In this document: one piece after another, positions 12,787 to 15,190 of the stretch
Numbering within the stretch: position 1 is the first letter of the stretch
How the letters are laid out: each line of letters opens with the position of its first letter
DNA from: Sphaerobacter thermophilus DSM 20745
GTDB taxonomy: Bacteria > Chloroflexota > Chloroflexia > Thermomicrobiales > Thermomicrobiaceae
Assembly (NCBI RefSeq): GCF_000024985.1
Contig: NC_013524.1
Span: 186,001 to 250,000 of the forward strand
Direction: 5' to 3'
Length of the DNA: 64,000 bases
The notes under the pieces: generated by a model
Told to the model about the DNA's origin: nothing
What the model saw: the letters and a program-made list of their open reading frames with translations, nothing else
Database searches by the model: none
Position numbers and translations under genes: made by a program

Positions 12787-13707
12787 TCACCGTTTCAGCA
12801 GATTGCGCAGGACGAAGAAGACGTTGGCCGGCCGCTCGGCCAACCGTCGCATGTAGTAGGGGTACCACTGCGTGCCGTAGGGCACATAGACACGCATGTT
12901 GTAGCCCTGCCGCGCCAGGCGGAGTTGCAGATCGCGCCGGATCCCGTAGAGCATCTGGAACTCGAACCGGTCGGGGCTGATCTTGTTGCGCGCGGCATAG
13001 GCGATCGCGGCGTTGATCATCGCCTCGTCCTGGGTTGCCAGGGCCGGGTAGTTCCCCTCTGCGAGCAGCATCTCCATGTGCCGCCGATAGGCCGCATCGA
13101 CCTCCTTCTTGGAGGGGTAGGCGACCATGTCCGACTCGGCATACGCACCCTTGACAAGGCGGACGCGGATCCCGGCCGCGATCGCATCGCGGATGTCGCG
13201 GTCGGTGCGGTAGAGGTACGACTGGAGCACGATGCCGACGGTGCCGGGGAACTGCTCGTGCAGATCGTAGGCGATGTCGAGGGTACGCTGCGTGTAGGGG
13301 GAGCCCTCCATATCGATCCGCACGAAGTTGTTGTGCGCCTTGGCACGCTCCAGCACCTTCGCTGTGTTCGAGCGTGCCAGCTCATCCGAGATGTCGAGCC
13401 CCAGCATCGTCAGCTTGATTGAGATGTTGCTGTTGACGCCGGTCTCGGCGATCTGGTCGAGAATCTGGCAGTACGCATCGGCGGCGGCGCGGGCCTCGTT
13501 CTCCGACGTGACGTTCTCGCCCAGCAGGTCGAGCGTCACGGTGAGCCCGTTCTGATTGAGGTCTCGCGTGACTGCCAGCGCCTCGTCCAGCGTCTCCCCA
13601 GGCACGAAGCGCCGGGCGAAGCCCTTCGAAAAACCGTTGCGGGTCACGACGCGTTGGATTCGCTCATTCCCCGCGAGCGCGAGCATCCCGCTGCGAAATA
13701 CGGGCAT
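12787..13707 (-). CDS. Proline dehydrogenase (monofunctional)
   Basis: 306 residues from ATG at 13707, where GGGGAGG lies eight bases upstream. The open frame back to 13827 adds 40 residues that would run through the neighbouring promoter. The (beta/alpha)8 PRODH domain is complete: R-L-V-K-G-A-Y-A-E-S-D, E-F-Q-M-L-Y-G-I-R-R and V-Y-V-P-Y-G-T-Q-W-Y-P-Y-Y-M-R-R-L-A-E-R-P-A-N. These hold the FAD- and proline-binding residues, including the conserved Arg pair. The enzyme oxidises proline to delta-1-pyrroline-5-carboxylate, passing electrons to the respiratory chain. The length is that of the short, Thermus-type enzymes. The partner P5C dehydrogenase is not in this window. Confidence 0.92.
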   Translation of the reverse strand: MPVFRSGMLALAGNERIQRVVTRNGFSKGFARRFVPGETLDEALAVTRDLNQNGLTVTLDLLGENVTSENEARAAADAYCQILDQIAETGVNSNISIKLTMLGLDISDELARSNTAKVLERAKAHNNFVRIDMEGSPYTQRTLDIAYDLHEQFPGTVGIVLQSYLYRTDRDIRDAIAAGIRVRLVKGAYAESDMVAYPSKKEVDAAYRRHMEMLLAEGNYPALATQDEAMINAAIAYAARNKISPDRFEFQMLYGIRRDLQLRLARQGYNMRVYVPYGTQWYPYYMRRLAERPANVFFVLRNLLKR

Positions 13708-13806: not shown

Positions 13807-13828
13807 CGAACGAATGTTCGGGTACAAT
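13807..13828 (+). promoter_or_regulatory. SOS box (LexA operator) overlapping the promoter of the HD phosphohydrolase
   Basis: CGAACGAATGTTCG at 13807-13820 fits the Gram-positive/Chloroflexi-type LexA consensus CGAAC-RNRY-GTTYG exactly. It ends two bases before a TACAAT -10 hexamer at 13823-13828. LexA bound here would cover the spacer and block transcription of the gene starting at 13865. Confidence 0.65.
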
Positions 13829-13864: not shown

Positions 13865-15190
13865 GTGCACGTGATGGACGGGCTCGGCGGCCAGGAGTGG
13901 GTGACGACGATCCGCGATAGCCTCTACGACCGCATCCCGTTGACGGCAGCGGACGTGGCGCTGATCGAGACGCCGGCCTTCCTGCGGCTCGACCGCATCC
14001 AACAGCTCGGCTTCGTGAGCAAGGTCTGGCCGGGCGCCAAGCACACCCGGTTCGAGCACTCCCTGGGCGTGTTCCACCTCATGCGGCAGGCCGTGGCCGC
14101 GGTCCGGCGCGTGGCGCCCGCGTGCGTGGAGATCGACGACGAGACGGCGCGCACGGCGATCGCGGCGGCACTGCTGCACGACATCGGCCACTATCCGTTC
14201 AGCCACGCCATCGAGGAGCTCGGGCCACCCATCCTCTCGCACGAGGAAGTCGGGCGGCGCGTGATCGAGGGCAGCGAGGTGGCTGCGGTCCTCACCGAGC
14301 ACTGGCGTGTCGACCCCGGTCGCGTCGCGGACCTGATCGACCCGCGGGGCGAGTTACCGCCCGGCGACCGGCTCCTGCGCGGGCTCTTGAGCGGCGCGCT
14401 TGATGTCGACAAGCTCGACTACCTGCCGCGGGACGCAAAGCACTGCAACGTGCCCTACGGCGGGGTGGACACCCCGCGCCTGCTCGACGCGCTGCGGGTC
14501 GTCGATGTCGAGGGCCGGCCGCGGATCGTGGTCAACGAGAAGGGCGTGAGCCCGCTCCACTCGCTGATCACGGCCCGCCAGGAGATGTTCGACAATGTCT
14601 ACTGGCACCATACCAACCGCGCCTGCATGGTCATGCTGCTGCGCGCGGTACAGGACGCGCTCGCGGTGGGGGCGATCACGCCGGAGCAGCTAACGCTCCA
14701 CGACGATGCCTCCCTGCTGGAGGTGCTCTCGCGGTCCGCGATGCCCGCGACCACGCGGGCGCTGGTCGACAGCCTGCGGTCGCGTCGCCTGCACAAGCGT
14801 GCCGTGGAGGTGAGTGCGCGCTCGGCCGATCTCTACCGCTATCTAAACAGCCTGTACGCCGATCCGGCGCGGCGCCGCGCGGTCGAGATGGGCATGGCCG
14901 CGGCGCTCGCGGACGCCCTGGGCACCATGGTGGAGCCGCACGAGGTGCTGATCGACATCCCGAAGCCGGAGCGCTGGCGGACCGACGTCTGGGTGTGGTT
15001 CAGCCGCCCGCCGCTCGGATTTCGGCCGCTGATGCCGTGGTCCGAGGCGGTCGGGCTCAGCGACGATGATCTCAAGCGCTACGAGGAGCACCGACGCCTC
15101 GTGCGGGTGGTCACGACCGAGCGCCTGCGCGATGAGGTGGCCAAGCGCGCGGAAGTGCTCCTGCTCCCGCTGCTGGGTGGGATCGCGTGA
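13865..15190 (+). CDS. HD-superfamily phosphohydrolase (COG1078/SAMHD1-like)
   Basis: 441 residues from a GTG start, with an in-frame ATG nine bases on. The N-terminal HD domain has His65 in T-R-F-E-H-S-L-G-V, His105-Asp106 in L-L-H-D-I-G-H-Y-P-F-S-H and an Asp in D-V-D-K-L-D-Y-L-P-R-D-A near 180. This is the full metal-binding set of the family that includes SAMHD1 and bacterial YwfO. Those proteins are dNTP triphosphohydrolases or related phosphohydrolases acting in the cytoplasm. The promoter carries an apparent SOS box, so expression is probably raised on DNA damage. The gene is divergent from proline dehydrogenase and not obviously in an operon. Confidence 0.85.
   Translation: MHVMDGLGGQEWVTTIRDSLYDRIPLTAADVALIETPAFLRLDRIQQLGFVSKVWPGAKHTRFEHSLGVFHLMRQAVAAVRRVAPACVEIDDETARTAIAAALLHDIGHYPFSHAIEELGPPILSHEEVGRRVIEGSEVAAVLTEHWRVDPGRVADLIDPRGELPPGDRLLRGLLSGALDVDKLDYLPRDAKHCNVPYGGVDTPRLLDALRVVDVEGRPRIVVNEKGVSPLHSLITARQEMFDNVYWHHTNRACMVMLLRAVQDALAVGAITPEQLTLHDDASLLEVLSRSAMPATTRALVDSLRSRRLHKRAVEVSARSADLYRYLNSLYADPARRRAVEMGMAAALADALGTMVEPHEVLIDIPKPERWRTDVWVWFSRPPLGFRPLMPWSEAVGLSDDDLKRYEEHRRLVRVVTTERLRDEVAKRAEVLLLPLLGGIA

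Follow-up and report, generated by a model that had tools for sequence, protein, structure and literature searches.

At the locus studied here, two genes diverge from a common 166-bp gap, one encoding an HD-domain protein and the other a proline dehydrogenase, and a palindrome of the SOS box type lies in the promoter of the former. The window, i.e. the whole stretch of DNA that was analysed, is 64 kb long and comes from a Sphaerobacter genome of 3.99 Mb in two contigs. The features are listed below together with the evidence for each.

12787-13707, minus strand: divergent proline dehydrogenase gene (Pfam Pro_dh); the operator probably does not act on it.
13807-13820, plus strand: predicted LexA operator (SOS box), CGAACGAATGTTCG (sequence, score with a lexA-derived matrix, the same element at lexA and recA promoters of the clade, presence before the HD gene in 9 genomes).
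13823-13828, plus strand: -10 element TACAAT of the HD-gene promoter (sequence; kept in 3/3 Sphaerobacter genomes).
13874-15190, plus strand: gene for an HD-domain phosphohydrolase of the SAMHD1/EF1143 type, 438 aa, a probable dNTP triphosphohydrolase (dNTPase) (Pfam, PDB relatives, predicted fold, catalytic residues).

A preliminary description of this DNA held that the palindrome fits the LexA consensus CGAAC-RNRY-GTTYG and is positioned just before a TACAAT -10 box. The fit is exact, with no mismatch between CGAACGAATGTTCG and CGAACRNRYGTTYG at positions 13807-13820; only 2 nt separate the palindrome from TACAAT, and it lies 53 nt before the ATG of the HD gene. This ATG, at 13874, is the likely start codon: the related locus of the same-genus genome G002 retains it but lacks the GTG at 13865. 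Scanning with consensus promoter elements gave no good -35 hexamer for the HD gene. Using a weight matrix derived from lexA promoters, and hence made independently of the HD gene, CGAACGAATGTTCG scored 21.3 bits compared with 10.4 bits for the runner-up in the window, where it is also the only exact GAACN4GTTC.

The same description had named similar boxes at lexA and recA as the check on its proposal, and this check came out in its favour. A single gene scores above the LexA family cut-off, and its translation shows the Ala-Gly cleavage site and the Ser/Lys motifs. The lexA promoter reads TTGACA-AGAACAGATGTTCG-ctcc-TATAAT and the operator therefore occupies most of the spacer, an arrangement that was recovered in 37/37 lexA promoters of relatives. 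At recA the box AGAACATTTTTTCT is situated directly 3' of the -10 element, and each of the 18 genomes read has a related box before recA, mostly at the same place. Thus, what would be expected in a genome with SOS genes, a LexA of the autocleavage type and operators at both lexA and recA, was found, and the palindrome adjoining the -10 element of the HD gene matches the LexA motif of its own genome.

Genome-wide, CGAACN4GTTCG occurs at 12 sites while the reversed control pattern has none, and the shorter GAACN4GTTC occurs at 53 sites, or approximately one per 75 kb, versus 22 for the control. The element is hence commoner than chance. Among the GAACN4GTTC sites that score at least 16 bits, 14 of 16 are intergenic (including one at a gene start, L019, that was entered as a promoter by hand), compared with 12 of the 35 remaining sites. 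Boxes were also detected at dinB (DNA polymerase IV), an imuB-like Y-family gene, radA and fpg. For the ribonucleotide reductase gene, approximately 870 bp of upstream sequence held no strong SOS box, the best site there reaching 9.2 bits about 300 bp before the ORF start.

Details of several individual boxes are as follows. That of radA (sms), CGAACGTATGTTCG (G000:C1:558732-558745), comes directly after a TACAAT and is kept in the genera g1, g2, g3, g5 and g6, and not in g4. The box CGAACTCGTGTTCG (G000:C1:871915-871928) lies near the start of fpg (mutM), in the gap that separates this gene from a HIT-family gene. Divergent from dnaN is a 198-aa ORF (L093 1500-2133, near G000:C1:1454839) with AGAACAAAAGTTCT after its likely -10 element; searches of Pfam, NCBIfam and the PDB gave no match for its product and it hit only PHROGs of unknown function, and we regard it as a candidate SOS protein of unknown function. 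The two top-scoring boxes in the genome, 23.4 bits each (G000:C1:27733, L015, and G000:C1:961329, L090), have no clear gene close downstream, and small unrecognised SOS genes are possible at both places. Finally, AGAACTGATGTTCG (G000:C1:89654, L017) precedes a gyrB-like topoisomerase gene by approximately 200 bp.

The box before the HD gene is kept at the orthologous promoters of related species, in total in 9 genomes of four genera of the family: 3/3 Sphaerobacter genomes, 4/4 genomes of genus g2 (among them the record HRbin26), and in g3 and g5. Among the Sphaerobacter genomes the flanks of the promoter have diverged, while both arms of the box and the -10 element are kept; likewise, among the relatives that have the box its centre varies and both arms are conserved. 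Six exact GAACN4GTTC sites occur in the 306 kb that surround 80 related loci, and four of these sites are no more than 75 bp before the HD gene. With sites spaced about 75 kb apart on average in the genome, we estimate that a 200-bp promoter would contain one by chance in approximately 0.3% of cases, and independent chance sites in four genera are therefore not credible on these comparisons. A match by chance within the window was rejected on the gap between 21.3 and 10.4 bits and on the clustering of the relatives' sites before the HD gene. Some GAACN4GTTC sites in the genome are intragenic and presumably due to chance, so one may ask whether the palindrome before the HD gene is another of these, or the site of a different regulator with a GAAC half-site. 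We consider this highly improbable given the low genomic density of such sites, the persistence of the box in four genera amid diverged promoters, and its being of the same type as the lexA operator of those very genomes.

Which of the two divergent genes the operator would serve is indicated by its position. The pair is conserved in the family and the two genes share the intergenic gap, which leaves room for the idea that the box acts on the proline dehydrogenase gene, or on both. Across the relatives that have the box, however, it lies 37-66 bp from the start of the HD gene, whereas its spacing from the proline dehydrogenase start ranges between 92 and 347 bp; it also adjoins the -10 element of the HD gene. 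Because the one distance is steady and the other variable, the HD gene is the likely target; proline dehydrogenase was rejected as the target on these distances, and a role for the operator at that gene seems very unlikely.

The box is missing before the HD gene in Thermomicrobium (g6) and in genus g4, both of the same family, as well as in every other family examined (approximately 30 promoters); LexA control is therefore not essential to the HD gene. In a tree of the HD protein, g4 falls outside the group that holds all genera with the box and g6 falls inside, with modest support for the joining fork (82/71). The simplest history suggested by this tree would be one gain after g4 had split off and one loss in Thermomicrobium. 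The distribution of the radA box resembles that of the HD-gene box, except that it is kept in g6.

We next consider the protein. It was previously proposed to be a SAMHD1/YwfO-like HD phosphohydrolase and a probable dNTPase, and both sequence and predicted fold relate it to EF1143 and SAMHD1. Specifically, it matches the Pfam families HD and HD_assoc_2, and the nearest solved structures by sequence are 2hek, 2q14, EF1143 (2o6i, 3irh and 4lrl; E-value 1e-24) and SAMHD1. The predicted model (mean pLDDT 84.8) matches the same structures with TM-scores of approximately 0.7. An HD domain, an HD-associated region and, in the predicted model, a SAMHD1-like fold are hence all present. Membership of the classical Dgt family or of the anti-phage dGTPases was rejected, since the scores are far under the curated cut-offs: 29.4 bits versus 152 for TIGR01353 (dGTP_triPase) and 20.1 bits versus 400 for NF041026. 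By these sequence comparisons the protein belongs to the SAMHD1/YwfO branch, and not to classical Dgt.

The catalytic residues R59, H62, H102, D103, H106, H111, H123, D179, K180, Y183 and D187 are all present and are invariant among the 12 aligned relatives. We take their SAMHD1 counterparts to be R164, H167, H206, D207, H210, H215, H233, D311, K312, Y315 and D319, respectively. Because the metal- and substrate-binding residues of SAMHD1 are thus all present and invariant, the protein is likely to be a dNTPase. The allosteric site appears different. In SAMHD1, Asp137, Gln142 and Arg145 of the first allosteric site (AL1) recognise guanine (PMC7045340). These places are taken by Glu32, Leu37 and Asp40 in the HD protein, which hence lacks the AL1 signature, a trait of SAMHD1 and not of every dNTPase. 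At the place of Arg145 (residue 40 here), all aligned relatives have an acidic residue, Asp or Glu. The guanine activator site thus seems to be rewired across the whole clade, and from the sequence alone activation by GTP or dGTP as in SAMHD1 should not be assumed for this protein. The AL1 replacements are not a consequence of LexA control, because relatives without the box have them too.

These replacements bear on the substrate. LexA might control the gene while the main substrate is not a canonical dNTP, the enzyme acting instead on oxidised dNTPs or another nucleotide, or having a role on nucleic acids; a nucleic-acid role at stalled forks has been reported for SAMHD1. The clade-wide replacement of the activator residues would agree with this, as would the lack of an assigned substrate for 2hek and 2q14, the closest structural relatives, and the presence in the regulon of fpg, whose product repairs oxidised guanine. 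Against it, the catalytic residues common to the dNTPases EF1143 and SAMHD1 are all invariant, and we regard a non-canonical substrate as unlikely, albeit less so than either proline dehydrogenase as the target or an accidental palindrome.

We therefore favour the reading that the HD gene encodes a LexA-repressed, damage-inducible dNTPase, with a probability of roughly 0.8. The operator, its conservation, the common regulon, the fold family and the catalytic residues come directly from the computations, and from these we infer binding, induction, activity and physiological role. In this model LexA, bound at 13807-13820, would occupy the DNA immediately before the -10 element and exclude RNA polymerase, in a geometry nearly the same as at lexA itself. 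Upon DNA damage, RecA filaments would promote self-cleavage of LexA, lifting repression, and the HD gene would be induced along with lexA, recA, dinB, the imuB-like gene, radA and fpg. The enzyme would then hydrolyse dNTPs to deoxynucleosides and triphosphate, and dNTP pools lowered or rebalanced during the SOS response may slow replication, or reduce the number of damaged precursors, for as long as the translesion polymerases and repair are at work. A dGTPase over-expressed in E. coli reduces the level of dGTP, and replication is slowed if salvage is blocked as well (PMC4014421), so the induced HD enzyme could slow DNA synthesis while repair proceeds. It may also serve other ends, for instance the removal of damaged precursors or the starvation of phage.

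The link between a probable dNTPase and the DNA-damage response that was originally drawn from the box has thus gained comparative support from the lexA and recA boxes, the conservation in four genera and the fixed distance to the HD gene. That the HD gene is a new lineage-specific SOS gene is, as a prediction from these comparisons, well supported, and the physiological implication would be moderately surprising. A bolder version, in which the SOS response actively lowers dNTP pools by means of a transcriptionally controlled dNTPase that has lost the SAMHD1-type guanine-sensing site, is more tentative and, in our judgement, somewhat less probable than an even chance; if true, it would reverse the usual pattern, in which dNTP supply rises after damage. 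The locus offers a testable case of a dNTP-destroying enzyme predicted to be directly under the DNA-damage repressor, and should dNTP pools fall on SOS induction, this would be relevant to the balance that bacteria strike between fork arrest, mutagenesis and phage replication.

With respect to known systems, the GAAC-N4-GTTC operator type is that of Bacillus and Mycobacterium LexA (PMC3323433). The comparative study in question set aside Sphaerobacteraceae and other multi-chromosome groups for want of an established motif, of another complete genome, or of both (PMC3323433), and the LexA motif and regulon of Sphaerobacter therefore appear not to have been described previously in the literature searched. 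Our data provide a well-supported motif and a first regulon for Sphaerobacter and its kin. Like the SOS regulons of Bacillus subtilis and Mycobacterium tuberculosis, this regulon has the same operator architecture and comprises lexA, recA and Y-family polymerases; unlike them, in our comparison, it also includes radA, fpg and, as predicted here, an HD dNTPase.

The preliminary description remarked that SOS control of dNTP levels by this family is not often described; this is correct, apart from one partial precedent. A search for papers joining the LexA/SOS regulon with a dNTPase, a triphosphohydrolase or an HD domain returned none, which is weak evidence as it covered open-licence literature only. 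The nearest precedent found for an SOS-linked dNTPase is dgt of Acinetobacter baylyi (ACIAD2613), whose induction by mitomycin C is 2.1-fold and depends on recA, and whose locus tag adjoins that of ruvA (PMC3978071). It resembles the Sphaerobacter HD gene in being a dNTP triphosphohydrolase gene tied to the damage response (a tie that is predicted for the HD gene), but by its name it belongs to the classical Dgt branch, it is perhaps co-transcribed with ruvA, and it resides in an organism without LexA, no operator of its own having been described. With EF1143 of Enterococcus faecalis and human SAMHD1, the HD protein has in common the HD fold, the catalytic residues and the overall predicted structure; it differs from SAMHD1 in the replacement of Asp137, Gln142 and Arg145 of AL1, and its gene differs from those of both in its predicted transcriptional control by LexA.
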